The notes: generated by a model not told the origin, from the sequence alone. Shown: positions 7 to 10,042, counted from the stretch's first letter. The stretch is DNA of 64,000 bases from Anaerobaca lacustris (GCF_030012215.1 NZ_JASCXX010000023.1:1-64000), one strand, 5' to 3'. A program made the numbers and translations.

Positions 7-1620
7 CTATCGGCCTCGCCATTCGCCGAGCATGCGTTTGAGGCGGTGCAGGATGCCGTCGCGCGCCAGTTCCGGCGGGACGACGGCCGAAGCCCGCAGC
101 TTCTCCAGCGACTCGGCGTTCTCGGCCGCGCGGGCGGCCGCCAGGTCGGAGAGCACGTGGGGGATTTCCTCGCGCAGCGACAGCAGATGGGCGAAAGCGC
201 GCCCGTCGAATTCGAGCAATTCGCAGTCCGTCGCAGCGGTCATGGTCGCGCTTCGCGGCAGGCCCGTCAGCAGGCTCATCTCGCCGAAGAGCGCGCCGGG
301 GTGCAGTTCGAACTCGATGGGCCGCGCCGTGTCGGTGTTCGCGATGCTGCCCTTGACGGTCCCCTGAACCAGGACGTAGAACGATTCGCCGTGCTCGTTC
401 TGGTGCATCAGGGTTTCGCCATGCGTGAAACGGGTGCGTTTGACGTCCCGCGCGACGCTTCTGAGTTCATCCCGGCTGAGCAGACAGACGCCCTCGGAAT
501 CGGCCATGAGTTTGCGCCCGAAGTCGCTGCGCGTCAGGTCGTCGACGATCCCTTCAAGCTCCGATTGCAGCGGCTTCTCGAACTGCTGGGCGTGGACCGC
601 CTCGAGGAAGTTGCCGAGCAGTCGGCCGCTCATCGGGAAGGGGATTTCGATCCCGCGCCGCTGGAACTTGTACCATATCATCCGCATCACATGGCCTTCG
701 ATCGCCGTACGCTGCTCGTACTGTTTCGACCAGAAACGCAGCACGTACTCGATGCAGAAGTCCTTGAAGCCGGTCACGTAGGCCTCGGGCGCCGGGTGTT
801 TCTCGACTCTCGGAATACTCTGGGCGGATTCGATCAGAGCGGCGATCACGTCACCCGGGACGTCACCGTAGCTGGCGGCGACGGGCACCTCGTGTCGGCG
901 CAGGGGCGTGGGCGCCGAGAAGTTGCGGATCGTCGCATCGGCGAGCTTGCCGTTCGGGATGACGACCATGTGGCCGCCGGTGGTGCGCAGGCGCGTCTCG
1001 CGCCAGTTGACCAGAACGACCTTCCCGATGGTCCCATCGACCTCGATCCAGTCGCCGACCGCCAACGAGCGGCTGGCGTGCAGCGACATGCCCGCCAGCA
1101 GGTTGCCCAGCACCCCCTGCATGGCGAAGCCGAGCACGCCGGTGACGATGGCGGTCGAGGTCAGCAACACGGTGATCCTGAGGTCCAACTGGTATCGGAT
1201 CAGAAGGAACGCCACCCCCAGCATCAGGGCCAGGCGGAGCAGGCCCCGCGTGAGGCGATTGAGAGGGCAGGCCCGGCCCATCTGCGCGAACAGCTCGACG
1301 AACAGGCCCTCGATGAGCCGGACCATCGCATGGATGGCCCAGAACGTCAGCCACGCCTGATGATACGGCGCCCAGAACGCCGTGTGATCGATCCAATGGA
1401 TCAATGGGAAGGAGAACGCCAGCACGCACACAGAGAATGCGACGTAGCCTGCAAGTGCGGCGACGAATTGCCGCCTTGAACGTTGGGGCAACTCGGTCCC
1501 TTCCGGGGGAAGGTAACGACGCCGCAATGGAAGCGTCAACAGATACGCGACGAAAAGCGCTGCCGTCGCCAAGGCGATGTTCTGAACGTACGGCAGTATC
1601 GGTTGAAGCCATGTCAACAT
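7..1620 (-). CDS. MscS-family channel with C-terminal cyclic nucleotide-binding domain (bCNG type)
   Basis: 537 residues. About five hydrophobic segments (roughly 15-35, 52-72, 85-110, 125-143, 150-180) lead into the MscS pore helix and beta domain (motifs SLAVGDWIEV at 185-194 and VVIPNG at 219-224). After the cytoplasmic cage there is a cyclic nucleotide-binding domain at about 378-495, with the phosphate-binding cassette GALFGEMSLLTGLPRSA. Gly446, Glu447 and Arg456 fit the family's cNMP contacts. The family is known as bCNG channels, which are thought to be gated by cyclic nucleotide more than by tension. It is the last gene of a five-gene minus-strand operon, 13 bp after the hydrolase gene. 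The same operon carries a class III cyclase, so cAMP made next door is the likely ligand (inference). The start is ATG with a GGAAG sequence 11 nt upstream. Confidence 0.9.
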   Translation of the reverse strand: MLTWLQPILPYVQNIALATAALFVAYLLTLPLRRRYLPPEGTELPQRSRRQFVAALAGYVAFSVCVLAFSFPLIHWIDHTAFWAPYHQAWLTFWAIHAMVRLIEGLFVELFAQMGRACPLNRLTRGLLRLALMLGVAFLLIRYQLDLRITVLLTSTAIVTGVLGFAMQGVLGNLLAGMSLHASRSLAVGDWIEVDGTIGKVVLVNWRETRLRTTGGHMVVIPNGKLADATIRNFSAPTPLRRHEVPVAASYGDVPGDVIAALIESAQSIPRVEKHPAPEAYVTGFKDFCIEYVLRFWSKQYEQRTAIEGHVMRMIWYKFQRRGIEIPFPMSGRLLGNFLEAVHAQQFEKPLQSELEGIVDDLTRSDFGRKLMADSEGVCLLSRDELRSVARDVKRTRFTHGETLMHQNEHGESFYVLVQGTVKGSIANTDTARPIEFELHPGALFGEMSLLTGLPRSATMTAATDCELLEFDGRAFAHLLSLREEIPHVLSDLAAARAAENAESLEKLRASAVVPPELARDGILHRLKRMLGEWRGR

Positions 1621-1633
1621 GGGGGCTGTCTTC

Positions 1634-2467
1634 CTATATCACAATCCATTGGCCGGCCCGCGCCAGCGCGGCGCCTGGCGATACGTCTTTCACTTGCTGC
1701 TCCAACGCGCGCAGCGTCGCGTCGTCGGCCCCCGGCGCGTGGTGTCCGAGAAGCACTCGCGGAATCCCTGTCGATGCGGCGATCTCGACGCCGTCCTCCC
1801 AAGAGGTATGTCCCCAGCCGGCAAATGCCTCTTGCTGCACCCGGCCGAAGTGCGCGTCGATGACAAGCATCTCCGCCGATCTCGGTTCACGACACAGGGT
1901 TTTGAACGCGGTCTCGAAGGCGTCCGTGCGATCCTGCCACTCGATATCGGTGGCAAACACCAGCGAGGCGCCGCCGGCGTCGTCCACCCGATAGGCAAGA
2001 GACCCGCCGGGATGGGGAACGGGACAACCCTGCACCCGCAAGCCGCCGACCTGGACTCCCTCAGCCGGGAATTCGGCGAACTCGACCTGTGCTCTCATCT
2101 GCTTCCAGGAGATCGGCCAGTACGGCTGGGCCAGCAGACCCGTCACGGCGCTGCGAACGCCGCCGTCGACAAATGTTGGACCGACGAATCGGAATGACCA
2201 CTCCGACCTGTAGAGCAGGGGGTTCATCGTTAGCCCGATCAAGTGATCGAGATGATAGTGTGAGAACAGCACGGTAATCCTGCCCGGCTCAGTCCGGCCC
2301 AATTGCCCCGCGACGGCTCGCATCCCGGTGCCCGCGTCGAGCACGAGTCGTTCGCCGTGCGAGCCGACCAGCAGCAGCGAGGTCGTGTCGCCGCCGAACT
2401 CGTCGAAACCGCTCCCGAGAGCCGGCTGGCTGCCACGCATTCCGCCAATGAAAAGCCGCATGCTCAT
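1634..2467 (-). CDS. Metallo-beta-lactamase-fold hydrolase
   Basis: 277 residues. The MBL-fold metal-binding motif HYHLDHL is present (HxHxDH), with a further conserved His-Pro (PVPHPGG), an Asp (FATDIEW) and a C-terminal His (LLGHHAPG). These are the usual di-metal ligands. The family includes phosphodiesterases, RNase Z-like enzymes and PQQ-type hydrolases; the sequence most resembles stand-alone MBL proteins found beside cyclase or signalling genes. The ATG at 2467 overlaps the TGA stop of the upstream cyclase (ATGA), so I chose it over in-frame starts further up. Because it lies between the cyclase and the cNMP-gated channel, it could hydrolyse a cyclic nucleotide, but nothing in the sequence fixes the substrate. 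Confidence 0.82.
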   Translation of the reverse strand: MSMRLFIGGMRGSQPALGSGFDEFGGDTTSLLLVGSHGERLVLDAGTGMRAVAGQLGRTEPGRITVLFSHYHLDHLIGLTMNPLLYRSEWSFRFVGPTFVDGGVRSAVTGLLAQPYWPISWKQMRAQVEFAEFPAEGVQVGGLRVQGCPVPHPGGSLAYRVDDAGGASLVFATDIEWQDRTDAFETAFKTLCREPRSAEMLVIDAHFGRVQQEAFAGWGHTSWEDGVEIAASTGIPRVLLGHHAPGADDATLRALEQQVKDVSPGAALARAGQWIVI

Positions 2468-4554
2468 TTCTCCGTCAGTCCCCAGACACCGTCCCATGAG
2501 GTCGGAGGATGGGCCGCCAGGTGCGCGCATCGTTGAGCGTAGCTCCTCGCAGCAGGGTCGTCGGGCAATCGCTCGAAGACGGCCTTGGCCCCTGCGAAGT
2601 CGCCCTTGCGAAAGAGCGCCAGCCCGGCGGCGAACGTCTCCCAACCGGCCGGCGCAGGATCGGCGGCAAAGCCGGTCAGTTCGTATACCTCCACTGCGGT
2701 CTTGCGGCCCACCACGCGGAGGTCCGCCAGCTTGCGGCCCCGGAATTCAGAGCCCGCCTGCCGCCACGTGCCGTCGGAGACCATGGTCTCTGTGCCAAAG
2801 GCCTTGTTGGCCCCCTCCAGGCGGGCGGCGAGGTTCGCAGCATCGCCGAGGATCGTGTAGTTGAACCGCTTACGGGAGCCCATGTTGCCGACGACGACGT
2901 CACCCGTGTTCAGGCCCACCCTCATCCGCAGCACGGCCCCCGTCCGCTGCTGGAAACCGTCCCGAAGTTCCGCCAGTCGGCGCTGGCAGCGCAGTGCCGC
3001 GCGGCAGGCGCGGACCGCGTGGTCCGACTGCGCCAGCGGCGCGTTCCAGAAGGCGATGATGGCGTCGCCCTCGTACTTATCGAGCGTACCCCCTTCTTCC
3101 ATGATGATGTCCGTCATCTCGCTGAGATAGTCGTTCAGCAGTGTCGTCAGCTCGACCGGCCCCAGCTTCTCGGAGAAGGTGGAGAAGCCGGCCAGGTCGG
3201 TGAACATGATCGTCATCTCGCGTTTTTCACCACCGAGTTGGAGATGTTTGGGGTCGCGGATGATCTTCTCGATTACCTCGCCGCTGAGATAATGCCTGAA
3301 GGCCTGCTTGATAAACGCCTTCTGGCGTCCCTCAGCCCAGTAGTTCATGGCCAGGGCACCGACGAGCGCCAGGCCCGCTGCTGTTTCATGCACGGCGACC
3401 GGCCACCACCATCCTCGGGCGTAGGCGGCGAAACCGATCAGCATCGGTATGCCAAGCCAGAAGACGGAAAGCGGGCCCGCCTGCCACCAGCGGCCGCCAT
3501 AGGTCAGCGACAGCGCGGCTCCGACGGCCGTCGCCAGCACGCCCAGCGCGACAGCGGGCCCACCTGCTTTGGCGATGAAAGACTTAGTGATGAGGTTATC
3601 GACGAAGGTGGCGTGCAATATGACCCCGGGACACTTGGGATTGACCGGGGTCGGTCGCAAATCGAGCAGCGCCGGCGCGCTGCACCCCACGAAGACATAG
3701 CAGTCTTTGAAGGTATCGGGCGACAGCACGGGGGGTTCTTCATCGCGCAGACGCAACTCCGATTGAATGACTGCCGCGGCAGAGACCGCTTCGGGCAAAC
3801 CATCGCGGCCTCGGAATCGCAGGATCGCATCGCCGCGTTCGTCGAGAGGAACGATGCTGTCGCCGATCTGGAGCCGTCGTACATCGGCTGTGACTTCGCT
3901 TGGCTCTGTGGCCAAATATGTTGCCAGCCCCAGCGCGGGGATCTCGATGCCATCGAAGCGACAGAACGGCGAGATCCGCCGGAACACGCCATCGGCGTCC
4001 GGCAGGCCCGCGACGTGTCCGAAGGCCATAGCGCCCGCCGCCACTTCCGGAACCGGAAACAGAAGATGATTGGGCTCGATCGCCGCCGCCACGGTCGTCG
4101 TACGATCCGGACGCGGCATGGATTCGGGCCATGTCTCCACGCTTCCGCCCGGCATCAGCGCCAGGACCGCCGGCGGACCGGACTTCAGGGCCTCGCCCAT
4201 CGCCTCGTCATCGGAGACGCCGTAGACCGACGGCTCAGTGAACAACAGATCCAAGGCCAGCGCCCGTGCTCCGCCGCGCTCACAGAACGCCGAGATCGCG
4301 CCGTACACCTCGCGCGGCCAGGGCCAGCCCCACCCATTCTCGCGCTGGGCCCAGTCGAGGCTGGTCTGGTCCAGCAGGATCAACTTGATCTCGGGCGAAA
4401 GGGTTTCTCGCGCCGAAAAGAAGCGGGCGCGCCACGCCCACGTCGGGGCTTCCCAGGATTCCAGGGCGCCGAGTTGCCACACGAGCAGCGCCGCTGCCGC
4501 AGTGGACAGGCCGATCAGCAGTGCACGCACACATTTGCCGCGAAGCTTGGGCAT
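2464..4554 (-). CDS. CHASE2-domain class III adenylate cyclase
   Basis: 696 residues. Layout: N-terminal membrane segment (about 8-28), extracytoplasmic CHASE2 sensor (about 35-330), three transmembrane helices (about 333-405), a class III cyclase domain (about 445-625) and a short TPR-like tail. Both metal-binding aspartates are visible (FTDLAG Asp453 and EGDAI Asp497). Lys493 (DKYEGD), Asn574 and Arg578 (GDAANLAAR) fit an ATP-using cyclase. The product is most likely cAMP. The start at 4554 is supported by GGAAGGA a few bases upstream; a second ATG lies at 4575. The 3' end overlaps the hydrolase gene by 4 bp. CHASE2 domains sense unknown extracellular or periplasmic signals. Confidence 0.92.
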   Translation of the reverse strand: MPKLRGKCVRALLIGLSTAAAALLVWQLGALESWEAPTWAWRARFFSARETLSPEIKLILLDQTSLDWAQRENGWGWPWPREVYGAISAFCERGGARALALDLLFTEPSVYGVSDDEAMGEALKSGPPAVLALMPGGSVETWPESMPRPDRTTTVAAAIEPNHLLFPVPEVAAGAMAFGHVAGLPDADGVFRRISPFCRFDGIEIPALGLATYLATEPSEVTADVRRLQIGDSIVPLDERGDAILRFRGRDGLPEAVSAAAVIQSELRLRDEEPPVLSPDTFKDCYVFVGCSAPALLDLRPTPVNPKCPGVILHATFVDNLITKSFIAKAGGPAVALGVLATAVGAALSLTYGGRWWQAGPLSVFWLGIPMLIGFAAYARGWWWPVAVHETAAGLALVGALAMNYWAEGRQKAFIKQAFRHYLSGEVIEKIIRDPKHLQLGGEKREMTIMFTDLAGFSTFSEKLGPVELTTLLNDYLSEMTDIIMEEGGTLDKYEGDAIIAFWNAPLAQSDHAVRACRAALRCQRRLAELRDGFQQRTGAVLRMRVGLNTGDVVVGNMGSRKRFNYTILGDAANLAARLEGANKAFGTETMVSDGTWRQAGSEFRGRKLADLRVVGRKTAVEVYELTGFAADPAPAGWETFAAGLALFRKGDFAGAKAVFERLPDDPAARSYAQRCAHLAAHPPTSWDGVWGLTEK

Positions 4555-4600
4555 GCGGTCCTTCCCATCACGCATTATCGTCGTTTGCCGTGTGCCCCTG

Positions 4601-4624
4601 AGGGCGAATGATGATTCGCCCCTA
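4601..4624. repeat. Palindromic repeat, GGCGAAT/ATTCGCC type
   Basis: A short palindrome, GGGCGAAT-GATG-ATTCGCCC with a flanking CTAC, lies between the M48 gene and the cyclase gene. Read on the minus strand it begins GTAGGGGCGAAT, and the TAG of that start is the stop codon of the M48 gene. The same type recurs at 47101-47126. Confidence 0.75.
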
Positions 4625-5548
4625 CCTGCCGCCCAGCACCGGCTGCATCGCGGTGGCGAAACGCTGTTGCCGGACGGCATCAGGGGCGGCCTGCGCGGTT
4701 GGGATTGCGGGCTTCAACGCGTCAGCCCGGCTCGAAGCCGAGGGGTGCGTTTTGGCGAAGCCCAGACCGCGCGCCGTGGCAAGTCGCTCGTCCATGCGTT
4801 TGAGCATCGTAAGGATGGCCGCTTCGGGGTAGCCGGCGCGTTTGAGCAGGCGCACCGCCGCGGCGTCCGCATCGCGCTCCTGCGTTCGCGAGTAGCCGCT
4901 CGTCGTCAGCGTCATCACCACGTCGCCCACCGATGACTCGAACTCGCGCGTCAGCGAGGCCAGCTCTTCGCTGCCCAACTGCTTGGCCGATTCGGCCGCA
5001 ACGATCGTGAACGCTTCGGTCAGGCGGCTCTGCTTGATCGCGCGGAGCCCGTGTTTTGCCTGGACGTGACAAATCTCATGGGCCAGCACGGCCGCCAACT
5101 CGTCCTCATTCTCGCAGCAACGCAGCATACCGCGCGTCACGAGGATCAATCCACCCGGCGCGGCAAATGCGTTGACTTCGTCGGAATCAAGCAGAAGGAA
5201 GCGGTAGCCGCCAAACGTTTCGGGCCGCTCGGAGAAGACGGCCAGCGACTGGCCGAGCAGGTTCAGATAGGCGTTCGCCTCCGGCCGATCCAGTGGCTGA
5301 TACGTCTCGAACACGCGCGCCGCCACGGCGCGGCCGATGTAATACTCCTGTTCGGGGGTCAGATCCTGCCAGCTCTTCTCGACGGCCGTCGCGCCGCGTT
5401 TGACCGATTCGGCCTGGTCCTCGGTCAGCACGCCCGTGGCCCGTCCCAGTTCGGCGCCCACCTCGCCCACGCCCTCGCAGCCGCAGAACCACAATGCGGT
5501 CAACAGGCCCATCCCGATGCTCAATGCCAGCCAGTGCCTTGCGTTCAT
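4622..5548 (-). CDS. M48-family zinc metalloprotease, lipoprotein
   Basis: 308 residues. The zinc-binding motif HEICH (in VLAHEICHVQAKHG) and a downstream ERDAD motif (RTQERDADAAAVRLL), which gives the third ligand, define an M48/LoiP/BepA-type peptidase. The N-terminus has a hydrophobic stretch ending in FCGC, consistent with a lipoprotein anchored at a periplasmic membrane face. These enzymes degrade or refold damaged envelope proteins. The ATG at 5548 overlaps the stop codon of the SH3 gene and has a strong GGGAGGTG ribosome site. The stop codon comes from the edge of a palindromic repeat. Confidence 0.9.
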   Translation of the reverse strand: MNARHWLALSIGMGLLTALWFCGCEGVGEVGAELGRATGVLTEDQAESVKRGATAVEKSWQDLTPEQEYYIGRAVAARVFETYQPLDRPEANAYLNLLGQSLAVFSERPETFGGYRFLLLDSDEVNAFAAPGGLILVTRGMLRCCENEDELAAVLAHEICHVQAKHGLRAIKQSRLTEAFTIVAAESAKQLGSEELASLTREFESSVGDVVMTLTTSGYSRTQERDADAAAVRLLKRAGYPEAAILTMLKRMDERLATARGLGFAKTHPSASSRADALKPAIPTAQAAPDAVRQQRFATAMQPVLGGR

Positions 5549-6021
5549 AGGGCACCTCCCGGCAGATTGCCCTGCCTGCGGAATTCCACGATCTGCTCGG
5601 CACCGACCTCGAGCGCCGCCATGCGATCCACCCACGTGTAGTCCAGTGTCCCTTCGGCTCGGAGCTTGGCCTCGACCTGCTCGTTGAATCCCTTGCCGGC
5701 CAGGGCGACCTCGTCGGACGAGACGCCGGTGTCCACGTCGGATGTCCCGGCCCGCATGGCAACCGGCTTCTTCGAGAGGGCCGACTCGTGCAGCCAGCCT
5801 TTCGCGCCGTCGGGCATGGTGACAGGATACCAGCCGTTTTGCACCGCCCCGGTTTCGACGACCTCGCCGTAATCCACTGCGGCCACGGTCTTGCCCAGTT
5901 GCGAGGGTGTGGCACGCACCCGGGCGTTACGCACCTGGACACTCATCGGCGCGGCGAATGCGATCCCGACGCATATCGGGACGGTAATCGCGACCAGCAC
6001 CGCAAGAATCTTCGTCTTCAT
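5545..6021 (-). CDS. Secreted SH3-domain protein
   Basis: 158 residues. A clear signal peptide (MKTKILAVLVAITVPICVG, cleavage near AFA-AP) is followed by a bacterial SH3 domain (VRNARVRATPSQLGKTVAAVDYGEVVETG...GWYPVTMPDGAKGWLHESAL, about residues 25-90). The C-terminal half is unrecognised and contains an EVALAGKGFNEQVE stretch seen in similar secreted proteins. It is the first gene of the operon with the M48 protease, whose start codon overlaps its stop (ATGA). An envelope role together with the protease is likely. The start at 6021 begins the signal peptide and has AGGAG upstream. Confidence 0.78.
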   Translation of the reverse strand: MKTKILAVLVAITVPICVGIAFAAPMSVQVRNARVRATPSQLGKTVAAVDYGEVVETGAVQNGWYPVTMPDGAKGWLHESALSKKPVAMRAGTSDVDTGVSSDEVALAGKGFNEQVEAKLRAEGTLDYTWVDRMAALEVGAEQIVEFRRQGNLPGGAL

Positions 6022-6280
6022 GACTTCTTGTCTCCTGCGAAAGCGCACTCCATTTTCGCCGTCTCGGATCACGATATGCATCGGACAGCACCGCGTACAA
6101 TGATACCGAGCCGCATGCCAAAAGCAAGCCACCACGATCTTCATGGATCGAGCAGACCTTCAGACCTTGCTCTTGGCCGTGCCGAGAGAGTACACTGCCG
6201 GCTACGGACCGATGCCGCAGGCGTCTCTTCCTGCTGCCGGGTTCTGAGGAAAAGCAGATGGCCTGCTATTGAGGGCGTAT

Positions 6281-6733
6281 ATGAAGAAGTCGAATCGTAC
6301 TCGGCTGGTTCTTGTGGGCGTGGGAATCCTGTTGCTCCTTCTCGGACTTCGTGGCGTAGCCTTGGGGGTGATCGGCGAAACGACCCAGGCGGCCGTCACC
6401 GAGGTCCAGCAGACGGTCAGCCAGCAGGATGATCCCATGGACCACAACTATCAGATCTCTTATCGGTTCCGCGTCGACGGCAAGGACTACACCGGCAGCT
6501 TCACCCGCAAGAAAGTCTATAACACGGGGACCCTGCCTTCGGTAGGGTCCCCGGTTTCCATTCGTTATCTTGCCGCTGCCCCCGCCGTCAATGGAGGCCC
6601 GGACGCAGGGCCGGTCGGCGGTCTGGTCCTTGGGGCGCTGGGGCTGTTCCTGCTGTTTCTCGGTGTCAAGCCGGCCAAGGCCGCCCCGGCGCCCGTACCG
6701 GAGGAGAGTCCCTCCACGGACTCTCCAGAATGA
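6281..6733 (+). CDS. DUF3592-like two-TM membrane protein
   Basis: 150 residues. One transmembrane helix at about 9-30 and a second at about 112-133 flank an extracytoplasmic beta-rich domain (YQISYRFRVDGKDYTG...VYNTGTLPSVGSPVSIRY). That arrangement is typical of the DUF3592 family. Its function is unknown. The ATG at 6281 has GAGGG five bases upstream. It is 30 bp upstream of the fucosidase fusion gene and is probably co-transcribed with it. Confidence 0.72.
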   Translation: MKKSNRTRLVLVGVGILLLLLGLRGVALGVIGETTQAAVTEVQQTVSQQDDPMDHNYQISYRFRVDGKDYTGSFTRKKVYNTGTLPSVGSPVSIRYLAAAPAVNGGPDAGPVGGLVLGALGLFLLFLGVKPAKAAPAPVPEESPSTDSPE

Positions 6734-6763
6734 CAGTCATCATTCCAGTTGAGGAGACCTGCG

Positions 6764-9700
6764 ATGAAGAAGACCATACTGCTTGCCTGGGGCATCTGTC
6801 TGTTCGGTTCCGTTGTGTTCGGACGGGACTACTACGTAGCGACCAACGGCAACGACACCAACCCCGGAACGATCGACAAACCCTTCGCCACGCTGGAGAA
6901 GGCCCGTGATGCCGTCCGACAGGACACATCCGACGGCGTCACCGTCGTGATTCGAGGCGGCGACTACTTCCGCGCGGAGTCGTTCGCGCTGACGGAGAAG
7001 GACTCGGGTCGGCTCGGAAAGCCTGTCGTCTACCGCGCCTATCCGGGCGAGACCGTTCGTTTGATCGGCGGCCGCCGGCTTGCGGCCGGGGACTTCTCAA
7101 AGGTCTCATCGGCAGATGCCGTCTGGGACCGGCTCGATCCGAGCGCCCGGGGCCGGTGCGTTCGAATCTCCGGGTTGAAGGCCACCCCGCAGATGCCGCT
7201 GCAGATGGAGCTGAGCTTCGGCGGCAAGCTGATGCAACTGGCCCGCTGGCCCAACGAAGGGTTCGTTCGCACGACGTCGGCCGCCGACGACATCACGTTC
7301 GGCTACGACGACCCGCGTCCCAAACGCTGGCTCGCTGCGTCCGACGCGCACGCCGTCGGCTACTGGCGTCACGGGTGGTCCAACCAGATCGTGAAGATTG
7401 CGAAGATCGACACGACGGCCAAGACGATCACCGCCGAGAAGGTCCCGCCGTATGGGATGCAGGCGAAGAAGCCGTACTACGTCGTCAACCTCATTGAGGA
7501 GATCGACCAGCCGGGCGAGTGGTATTTCGACCGGGCCGCCGGAAGTCTCTATTTGTGGCCGCCGGAGGATCTCGACAAGGGCGATGTTCTGATCTCCACG
7601 CTGGAGGCGCCGATCATCGCGATGAAGAACGCCTCACACGTTCGGATCGAAGGGCTGACGATCGAGATGGGCGTCCGGAATGGCATCGAGGTCTCCGGCG
7701 GCAGTGACGTTCGGATCGAGCGTTGCACCGTCCGCAACATGCGGGGCAACGGCATCGAGATCTCCGGTACGAACCACGGCGTAGTGCATTGTACGATCCA
7801 CGGCATCGGGCAGACGGGGGTCGCCGTATCCGGCGGGGATCGTGCGAAGCTCACGCCGGGCAACAACTTCGTGCGCCACTGTACGATTCATGATTTCGGC
7901 CGGTGGCAGCGGACCTATGCCCCCGCGATTCGTCTCAACGGTGTGGGCAATGTCGCGGCCAACAACAAGCTCTACGACGCTCCGCACTCGGCGATTCTCT
8001 TCGGCGGCAACGAGCATCGAATGGAGCGCAACGAGATCTACGGCGTCTGCTACGAGGTGGACGACGCCGGCTCGATCTACGCCGGACGCGACTGGGGCCT
8101 GCAAGGCAATGTGATCGAGAACAACTTCTTCCACCACATCGAAAGCCACCTGACCGGCAGCAACGGCGTTCACGCGGTCTATCTCGACGACTGCGCCAGC
8201 GGCGTCACCGTCGTCGGCAACGTCTTCTACAAGATCAGCGGACGGGCCATCATGTGCGGCGGCGGACGCGACAACACCATCGACAACAACGTTATCGCCA
8301 GGTGCGGCTCGGCCCACTTCACCGACCGGCGCGGCAAGGTCTGGATCGACAAGGACAATAGTTGGAAGCTGCTCGACAAGATCAAGCGGGTCAACTACAC
8401 GCAGCCGCCGTGGAGCGAGCGCTATCCGCGACTGGCCCGCATCCTCGACAACGGATATGAGCAGGCCAAGGAGCCCGAAGGCTGCATCATCGCTCGCAAC
8501 ATCGGCTGGCAGAACACGCGCTGGCTGGAGAAGAACTGCCTCGGGGCCTGCGGCGGGTTCGATTTCTACAGCTTCCAGGACAACATCGAGGACCAGGACC
8601 CGAGATTCGTCGACGAGGCAAACCTGAATCTCGCGCTGCGCGACGATTCACCGGCGTACTCGATTCCGGGCTTCAAGCGGATTCCGTTCGAGAAGATCGG
8701 CCCACAGCAGAGCGACAACAAGCTGGGCGGCTATGCCATCAACCCGGTGTGGATGGCTGAGGCGATGAACGTCTTCAATGCGCCCAAGCCAAAGCTCGAA
8801 TTGCCCACGAAGCATCCCGACGCCCAGTGGTTTCCCGAGGCGAGCTTCGGCTTGTTCCTGCACTGGGGCATCCATAGCGTCGACGGAATTGACCCCTCAT
8901 GGTCGATGATGAAAGGCTGTCCCTGGCATGGCAGTTCCGATCCCTACAAGAAGTACAACCAGGACCAGACGCAATATTATGGCCTGGCGGAGAAATTCAA
9001 CCCGACCCAGTACGATCCCGACAAGTGGATGGCGGCGGCGAGGAAAGCGGGCTTCACCTACGCCGTGCTGACGACGAAACACCACGACGGCTACGCGCTG
9101 TGGCCGACCGACTTCGGCGACTTCAGCACGAAGCAGTACATGGGAGGTCGCGATCTGCTCAAGCCCTATGTCGACGCCTGTCGCAAGCACGGCCTGAAGG
9201 TCGGTTTCTACTTCTCGCCTCGCGACTGGCATTATCCCGGCTATCCGCAGGCGATGGAGTACCGGGCGAAGTTTCCGCTGCCGCCGGCTGACGAGAACTT
9301 CGAGAATTTCAAGGCGTTCTACGCCTACACGCTCGGCCAGATTCACGAGCTGCTGACCCGCTACGGCAGGATCGACGTGCTCTGGTTCGACGGGATGGGC
9401 TGGAGCGGCGTTTCCGACATGCGCGCCGAGCAGACGCTGGCCTGGGTCCGGTCGATCCAGCCGGGCATCGCGATCAATCCGCGATGGAGCGGCTTCGGCG
9501 ACTTCGCCACTACCGAGTGCACGCCTGGCAAGCCTGAGAACTGGAAACCCGGCCACTGGTGGGAGGCCTGCGACATCTGGCCCAGCGGCCACTGGGGCTA
9601 CGTCCCAAGCGAGCGGTTCAAACCGCTCTCGTGGGTCTTCACGCGCCTCGCCAATTGCCGCGCGTGGGGCGGCAACTTCCTCTGCAACGTCGGGCCGCGC

Positions 9701-10042
9701 CCCGATGGGACGATGCCCGATGTGTTCTACGATTACTGCGACGATCTGTCGCAGTGGATGGCCCACAGCCGCGATTCGGTCATCGGCGCCGGGCCCGCCC
9801 CCGGCGAAGACCGCGGCAACGTCCCGATCACCACACGCGGCGATACCTGGTATCTGCACGTGCTGCCGGCTCACCAGGGCCCCGTTGTGCTTTCGAAGGT
9901 TTCCGAGCCAAAGGCGGTCGTGTTGATGCGCACCGGCCGGACGCTCCCATACGAGCGCCGGGGCGACGGCCTGACCATCGCCATCCCAGCCGATCTGCGC
10001 ACCGACCTCGACGACGTCGTCGCCGTCCGCTGGTTTGACTGA
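6764..10042 (+). CDS. Secreted GH141-like beta-helix fused to GH29 alpha-L-fucosidase
   Basis: 1092 residues with a signal peptide (cleavage near VVFG-RDY). The N-terminal part (about 20-640) opens with DYYVATNGNDTNPGT and continues FATLEKARDAVR, then RAYPGETVRLIGGR, with parallel beta-helix rungs at about 285-500. This resembles GH141, a right-handed beta-helix family that contains an alpha-L-fucosidase and a xylanase. The C-terminal part (about 680-1000) is a GH29 alpha-L-fucosidase: FGLFLHWGIHS, TTKHHDGYALWPTDFGDFS and the nucleophile Asp876 in LWFDGMGW. The two halves are joined in one uninterrupted frame. Substrates are probably fucose-containing polysaccharides outside the cell or in the periplasm. 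GAGGAG lies 7 nt before the ATG. The GH29 call is firm; the GH141 call is by overall resemblance. Confidence 0.88.
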   Translation: MKKTILLAWGICLFGSVVFGRDYYVATNGNDTNPGTIDKPFATLEKARDAVRQDTSDGVTVVIRGGDYFRAESFALTEKDSGRLGKPVVYRAYPGETVRLIGGRRLAAGDFSKVSSADAVWDRLDPSARGRCVRISGLKATPQMPLQMELSFGGKLMQLARWPNEGFVRTTSAADDITFGYDDPRPKRWLAASDAHAVGYWRHGWSNQIVKIAKIDTTAKTITAEKVPPYGMQAKKPYYVVNLIEEIDQPGEWYFDRAAGSLYLWPPEDLDKGDVLISTLEAPIIAMKNASHVRIEGLTIEMGVRNGIEVSGGSDVRIERCTVRNMRGNGIEISGTNHGVVHCTIHGIGQTGVAVSGGDRAKLTPGNNFVRHCTIHDFGRWQRTYAPAIRLNGVGNVAANNKLYDAPHSAILFGGNEHRMERNEIYGVCYEVDDAGSIYAGRDWGLQGNVIENNFFHHIESHLTGSNGVHAVYLDDCASGVTVVGNVFYKISGRAIMCGGGRDNTIDNNVIARCGSAHFTDRRGKVWIDKDNSWKLLDKIKRVNYTQPPWSERYPRLARILDNGYEQAKEPEGCIIARNIGWQNTRWLEKNCLGACGGFDFYSFQDNIEDQDPRFVDEANLNLALRDDSPAYSIPGFKRIPFEKIGPQQSDNKLGGYAINPVWMAEAMNVFNAPKPKLELPTKHPDAQWFPEASFGLFLHWGIHSVDGIDPSWSMMKGCPWHGSSDPYKKYNQDQTQYYGLAEKFNPTQYDPDKWMAAARKAGFTYAVLTTKHHDGYALWPTDFGDFSTKQYMGGRDLLKPYVDACRKHGLKVGFYFSPRDWHYPGYPQAMEYRAKFPLPPADENFENFKAFYAYTLGQIHELLTRYGRIDVLWFDGMGWSGVSDMRAEQTLAWVRSIQPGIAINPRWSGFGDFATTECTPGKPENWKPGHWWEACDIWPSGHWGYVPSERFKPLSWVFTRLANCRAWGGNFLCNVGPRPDGTMPDVFYDYCDDLSQWMAHSRDSVIGAGPAPGEDRGNVPITTRGDTWYLHVLPAHQGPVVLSKVSEPKAVVLMRTGRTLPYERRGDGLTIAIPADLRTDLDDVVAVRWFD

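Follow-up and report, generated by a model that had tools for sequence, protein, structure and literature searches.

The 64,000-nucleotide stretch of Anaerobaca lacustris DNA analyzed here (GCF_030012215.1, NZ_JASCXX010000023.1:1-64000; hereafter the window) comes from a bacterium of a little-studied group and makes up the first 64 kb of contig 23 in an assembly of 117 contigs that totals 5.73 Mb. At its start lie five genes, all on the minus strand, that encode in order an SH3-domain protein, an M48 metalloprotease, a CHASE2 nucleotide cyclase, a metallo-beta-lactamase (MBL)-fold hydrolase and an MscS-type channel with a cyclic nucleoside monophosphate (cNMP)-binding domain. An earlier reading of the window, made without database searches (the sequence-only reading), had described these five as overlapping or nearly touching genes headed by the SH3 and M48 proteins, and all were found at that place and on that strand. 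Based on the analyses below, we consider it likely that the operon represents a private, envelope-sensing cyclic AMP (cAMP) circuit with an ion channel as receiver and with ion or solute flux, not transcription, as output. The five genes, with their Pfam matches, are:

5545-6021, minus strand: SH3-domain protein of 158 residues, secreted (predicted periplasmic); SH3_3 2e-7 and SH3_4 3e-7, on the longer open reading frame 5545-6144
4622-5548, minus strand: M48 metalloprotease of 308 residues, predicted lipoprotein; Peptidase_M48 1.2e-31
2464-4554, minus strand: CHASE2-class III nucleotide cyclase; CHASE2 (PF05226) 5e-42 and Guanylate_cyc 5e-20
1634-2467, minus strand: MBL-fold hydrolase of 277 residues; Lactamase_B_2 (PF12706) 8e-12
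7-1620, minus strand: MscS-type channel of 537 residues, cNMP-binding domain at 181-435; MS_channel_2nd (PF00924) 1e-17, MS_channel_3rd (PF21082) 4e-10 and cNMP_binding (PF00027) 5e-20

The SH3 and M48 genes, and likewise the cyclase and MBL genes, overlap by the sequence ATGA, and 13 base pairs separate the MBL stop codon from the channel start. The cyclase start was placed at 4554 and not at an ATG at 4575, as the former is preceded by the better ribosome-binding site and its methionine is conserved. As the window starts at the first base of the contig, the sequence 3' of the channel gene is not visible in it, and no conserved sixth gene was found 3' of the channel in the loci of relatives.

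Domains and conserved residues of the operon proteins

The CHASE2 domain of the cyclase is N-terminal to the membrane helices (helices were located at residues 15-33 and about 333-410), which thus sit between the sensor and the catalytic domain. The catalytic domain has the motifs FTD, LDKYEGD and YTxLGDxxNLAxRLE. The sequence-only reading had called the metal and ATP residues intact; they are, and the two metal-binding Asp, the Lys/Thr pair and the transition-state Asn and Arg were invariant across the 32 aligned cyclases, one of which has a change in a neighboring residue (NTASRLE). The Lys/Thr pair that selects the substrate reads LDKY/F and YT(I/V/M/A) in 32 of 32, the position of the Thr having been assigned by eye from the alignment. 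Based on this pair the protein is a predicted adenylate cyclase of class IIIb-like type. In class IIIb adenylate cyclases the Thr of the pair is thought to predict stimulation by bicarbonate (PMC3383692).

The SH3 protein has a hydrophobic segment at residues 5-23 that forms a signal-like N-terminal helix. In the M48 protein, C24, H157, E158, H161 and E224 were invariant, representing the HExxH motif, the third-ligand Glu and a Cys that follows a hydrophobic segment as in lipoproteins, which is why the protein is predicted to be one; the M48 motif was kept in 27 homologues. A Pfam scan identified no TPR repeats in it.

The channel has N-terminal membrane helices, an MscS beta domain (matching MscS in the PDB at E 7e-20) and a C-terminal cNMP-binding domain. 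Its phosphate-binding cassette reads FGEM...PRSAT, with the Arg kept in 21 of 21 aligned sequences, and solved domains related to it include those of PKA regulatory subunits, MlotiK1 (E about 2e-11) and SthK (E 3e-8). By its domain make-up the protein is of the bacterial cyclic-nucleotide-gated (bCNG) type, and it would be gated by cAMP or cGMP. An AlphaFold2 model of the channel was poor (predicted local distance difference test, pLDDT, of 50) and was not used.

Conservation of the gene order in two phyla

All 16 of the Planctomycetota loci L012-L027 have cyclase, MBL and channel genes in this order on one strand, at 59-97% identity, and those on a long enough contig also have the SH3 and M48 genes in front on the same strand. 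The full set is also present, at 41-53% identity, in the remote Planctomycetota genome G343 (L036). In a second phylum, that of a Kiritimatiellae genome, an orthologous cyclase was identified in 26 of 194 genomes, set clearly apart by its score (732 bits or more, versus 375 bits or less for the rest). The complete set of five genes is present in eight of these 26; six lack only the channel (SH3-M48-cyclase-MBL), five have cyclase-MBL, two SH3-M48-cyclase and three the cyclase alone, with the remaining two cut by contig ends. SH3 orthologues occur in the operon of both phyla. Gene order, whose loss in relatives would have counted against the sequence-only reading, was therefore conserved in every Planctomycetota locus of L012-L027 with room for it and in 8 of 26 second-phylum loci.

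The genes flanking the operon are common only to close relatives, which indicates that the operon was kept as a unit while its surroundings changed. Chance collinearity was ruled out, as loci in the two phyla share the order of the five genes but not the flanks. Mirror-tree correlations were 0.91-0.97, values that fit co-inheritance and that shared ancestry alone would also raise. When an alternative cNMP effector was sought downstream of the MBL gene in the channel-less loci, only unrelated genes were found.

One PF00211 and one PF00027 protein found per operon genome

We scanned 11 Planctomycetota genomes that have the operon (G000-G005, G012, G023, G029, G036 and G343) for PF00211 and PF00027. 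Each of the 11 has exactly one PF00211 protein, the operon cyclase, and exactly one PF00027 protein, the channel. Among 27 operon-free genomes of the same family, a PF00027 protein was found in one and the two domains together in none. The searches were able to detect such domains, since they gave matches in 10 and 5 of 14 control genomes. The operon cyclase was also the only CHASE2 protein found in the window's genome.

Recurrence of the cyclase-channel pairing in remote lineages

A search of 294 Planctomycetota genomes with the channel alignment identified seven with a close channel, and in four of these (the window's genome, G343, G113 and G132) the channel gene adjoins a CHASE2 cyclase; identity is about 30% in G113 and G132. 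The G132 locus (L103, 225-5593) has a new order, MscS-cNMP channel, CHASE2 cyclase, SH3 and M48, again at about 30% identity. Together, this recurrence and the sole PF00027 and PF00211 proteins per genome strongly support the step from cAMP to the channel that the sequence-only reading had proposed.

A further arrangement was found in G508 (L087, 6713-11889), where consecutive genes encode a K+ channel with an RCK domain, a Popeye-like cNMP-binding membrane protein, a CHASE2 cyclase and a protein that fuses SH3 to M48. A divergent MBL gene (PF12706) adjoins them, and CRP genes are nearby. The fusion of SH3 and M48 into one protein argues that the two act together, and the repeated pairing of this type of cyclase with unrelated types of channel argues that ion flux is its common output. 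In another locus, L094 (4220-7830), a gene for a SpoIIE-type phosphatase immediately precedes the CHASE2 cyclase gene, and SH3 and M48 genes follow.

The MBL-fold hydrolase as a candidate phosphodiesterase

The sequence-only reading had suggested that the hydrolase could end the signal, a guess supported by its motif and fold. The metal ligands SHYHLDH, His152, Asp174 and His242 were invariant in alignments. Rv1339, YhfI and Corynebacterium glutamicum CpdA, the atypical class-II cAMP phosphodiesterases, are described as having PF12706 and the signature [T/S]HXHXDH (PMC9293780); the operon protein shares this domain and signature, has a predicted fold like theirs, and differs in being at about 20% identity to them in structural alignment and in being coupled to one cyclase gene. 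In Foldseek an AlphaFold2 model of the protein (pLDDT 85) was matched best by YhfI (6kns, E 5e-15); RNase Z, PhnP, yeast PDE1 and Apyc1 ranked lower. Based on these features it probably works like the atypical class-II enzymes.

The principal competing explanation, which we consider improbable though the best placed of the alternatives, is that the protein is another hydrolase of RNase Z/PhnP type with a different substrate and that the signal ends in some other way. Structures of RNase Z and the PhnP family score near YhfI, the NCBIfam models for RNase Z match the protein weakly (under their cut-offs), and many of its relatives in the wider phylum are not beside a cyclase. However, the protein was present in only 10 of 61 relatives (24 loci in the genome collection) and, absent from the other 51, it is no housekeeping RNase Z. 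In addition, it is translationally coupled to the cyclase, adjoins the cyclase in 19 of the 24 loci of the second phylum that no contig end interrupts, and has the signature and top structural match of the phosphodiesterase type. Its best Planctomycetota relatives, except that of G343, lie away from a cyclase, so the MBL protein alone is no marker of the system. Such relatives are common in Planctomycetota away from cyclases, sometimes as adjacent pairs (e.g., G288:C287 and G174:C270).

Alternative roles for the channel and the operon

The channel shows good conservation of its MscS pore helix and beta domain, and a bCNG channel, Ss-bCNGa, gates with mechanical tension according to a title cited in PMC4560390. 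These points are consistent with the channel being primarily a tension-gated emergency valve whose threshold is tuned by cAMP, in which case the operon would be an osmotic-stress unit with the cyclase reporting turgor or wall strain. We regard this as unlikely, since, compared with cAMP gating, it offers no better account of a private cyclase-hydrolase pair, and the M48 protease is not obviously an osmosensor.

Less likely again is an operon that serves as an envelope quality-control unit, its cAMP going chiefly to unknown receptors, with the channel as an accessory. Loci with SH3, M48 and cyclase genes and neither MBL nor channel were identified in Planctomycetota (L090-L092), a Holophagaceae genome of the Acidobacteriota (L099) and the second phylum (L079 and L081), and the second phylum has other cNMP-binding proteins, as would suit such a unit. 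By contrast, no PF00027 protein besides the channel was found in the window's genome. In the Holophagaceae locus (6646-9250 for the three genes) the matches to the cyclase fall in two different frames, suggesting a frameshift or an assembly error.

A Pycsar-type anti-phage system, in which a cyclic pyrimidine would carry the signal and the channel would depolarise the membrane, was rejected as highly improbable. The points of likeness are a class III cyclase fold and a cNMP-binding effector: in PADLOC, PycC models hit the cyclase domain (best 3.6e-33) and PycTIR models the cNMP-binding domain, and the MBL protein distantly resembles Apyc1 structures in fold. The PycC matches, however, reflect the generic class III catalytic fold, the PycTIR matches cover the cNMP part with no TIR domain, where Pycsar pairs PycC with a TIR or small TM effector, and the MBL protein is without a PADLOC match. 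The operon, a conserved unit within clades that is not patchily exchanged, also differs by its adenylate-cyclase Lys/Thr pair, large periplasmic CHASE2 sensor, MscS-type channel effector and SH3 and M48 partners, for which a Pycsar system has no place.

The proposed circuit

In the cAMP-to-channel circuit that we favor, the SH3 protein and the M48 lipoprotein, both predicted to lie outside the inner membrane, would set the activity of the CHASE2 sensor and would probably report the state of the wall or of envelope proteins. They may regulate the CHASE2 domain by analogy with the outer-membrane protein NsrA of Sinorhizobium meliloti (PMC13001267). When triggered, the class IIIb-like catalytic domain would produce cAMP on the inner side of the membrane, where it would bind the C-terminal cassette of the channel and alter its opening. 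The response may be a flux of ions or solutes that relieves turgor or changes the membrane potential, and the MBL enzyme, translationally coupled to the cyclase, would hydrolyze cAMP and reset the system. What the analysis shows directly is the gene content and order, the conservation of the five genes as a unit, their intact residues and, within PF00211 and PF00027, the uniqueness of the cyclase and the channel in these genomes. We infer five elements of the scheme: cAMP as the product, the gating of the channel, the hydrolysis of cAMP, SH3 and M48 as upstream regulators, and the nature of the stimulus. The last is the weakest step; because the partner is an M48 protease, the stimulus would most likely be envelope damage or a misfolded envelope protein.

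Several observations weigh against this interpretation. The channel is missing from most of the second-phylum loci that retain the cyclase, and genomes of that phylum have a further one to seven cNMP-binding proteins. Consequently exclusivity is a trait of the window's lineage, and in the second phylum the channel, often absent, is one of several possible receivers. The uniqueness described above covers PF00211 and PF00027 only, as other cyclase classes and cNMP receptors of other folds were not searched for, and several of the genomes are incomplete, so that genes may be missing from the assemblies. As to the hydrolase, VIA-align scored RNase Z (25.8) and YhfI (25.3) about level against its model, so that the structure comparisons do not tell a phosphodiesterase from an RNase Z, and the NCBIfam model for cyclic-nucleotide phosphodiesterases (NF041851) gave 40.3 bits against a cut-off of 400, far enough below that we have not filed the protein as a member of the atypical class-II family.

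More speculatively, and as a proposal on which we place somewhat less than even confidence, cAMP may serve no transcription factor at all, such that one envelope-sensing cyclase, a dedicated phosphodiesterase and one channel would form a complete, fast circuit triggered by the M48 protein, and the sensor module may have recruited unrelated channels (an MscS-type channel, and a K+ channel with a Popeye-like protein) more than once. If this speculation is correct, the logic of the circuit would be comparable to that of animal sensory transduction.

Research on bacterial cAMP has dealt almost wholly with its role as ligand of CRP-type transcription factors, and little is established about the physiological purpose of bacterial cyclic-nucleotide-gated channels. 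One operon that supplies a source, a probable eraser and a receiver would make that purpose directly testable, and as a minimal natural set of source, eraser and channel it could be moved into E. coli. In addition, CHASE2 cyclases gain candidate envelope partners in the SH3 and M48 proteins.

Upstream region and neighboring genes

A promoter-like sequence was identified by alignment of the regions upstream of the SH3 gene:

6127-6122 (-35) and 6105-6100 (-10), minus strand: promoter-like TTGCTT-16-TATCAT

The positions of the hexamers and the 16-base spacer are common to L012, L014, L015, L019 and L021, with some letters varying, and were not clear in L024, L026 and L027. A GGAG ribosome-binding site precedes the SH3 start in all nine aligned upstream regions.

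Adjoining the operon is a divergent gene for a small membrane protein with a DUF3592 domain (6269-6733), a neighborhood kept only in L012. Beyond it, 6749-10042 encodes a 1097-residue protein with a right-handed beta-helix (a GH141-like insertion match) and an alpha-L-fucosidase domain, which among relatives also adjoins the operon in L012 only.

Comparison with known systems

The components of the operon are known. A full-text literature search identified no description of the operon or of its proposed closed combination of source, eraser and receiver, which is weak evidence, as subscription papers were mostly outside its reach.

Like the bCNG channels, a subfamily of the MscS channels (Caldwell et al. 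2010 and Malcolm et al. 2012, as cited in PMC4560390), the operon channel carries a C-terminal cNMP-binding domain behind its MscS beta domain. It differs by sharing its operon with genes for a cyclase, a probable phosphodiesterase and envelope proteins, a context that we did not find described, and by being the sole PF00027 protein found in the genome. The bacterial cAMP-modulated K+ channels MlotiK1 and SthK have cAMP-binding domains related to that of the operon channel, whereas their pore is a K+-selective tetramer unrelated to its MscS-type pore.

The M48 protein is similar to the M48 proteases LoiP and BepA in its M48 domain and its lipoprotein or periplasmic location, but scores under their NCBIfam cut-offs (62 versus 365 and 90 versus 570 bits, respectively). 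A parallel for the sensor is in S. meliloti, whose cyclases CyaD1, CyaD2 and CyaK share with the operon cyclase the CHASE2 sensor and class III cyclase, and are activated via the outer-membrane protein NsrA (PMC13001267). In that system the receiver is the transcription factor Clr and the envelope partner is NsrA, whereas in the A. lacustris operon the apparent receiver is the channel and the candidate partners are the SH3 and M48 proteins.

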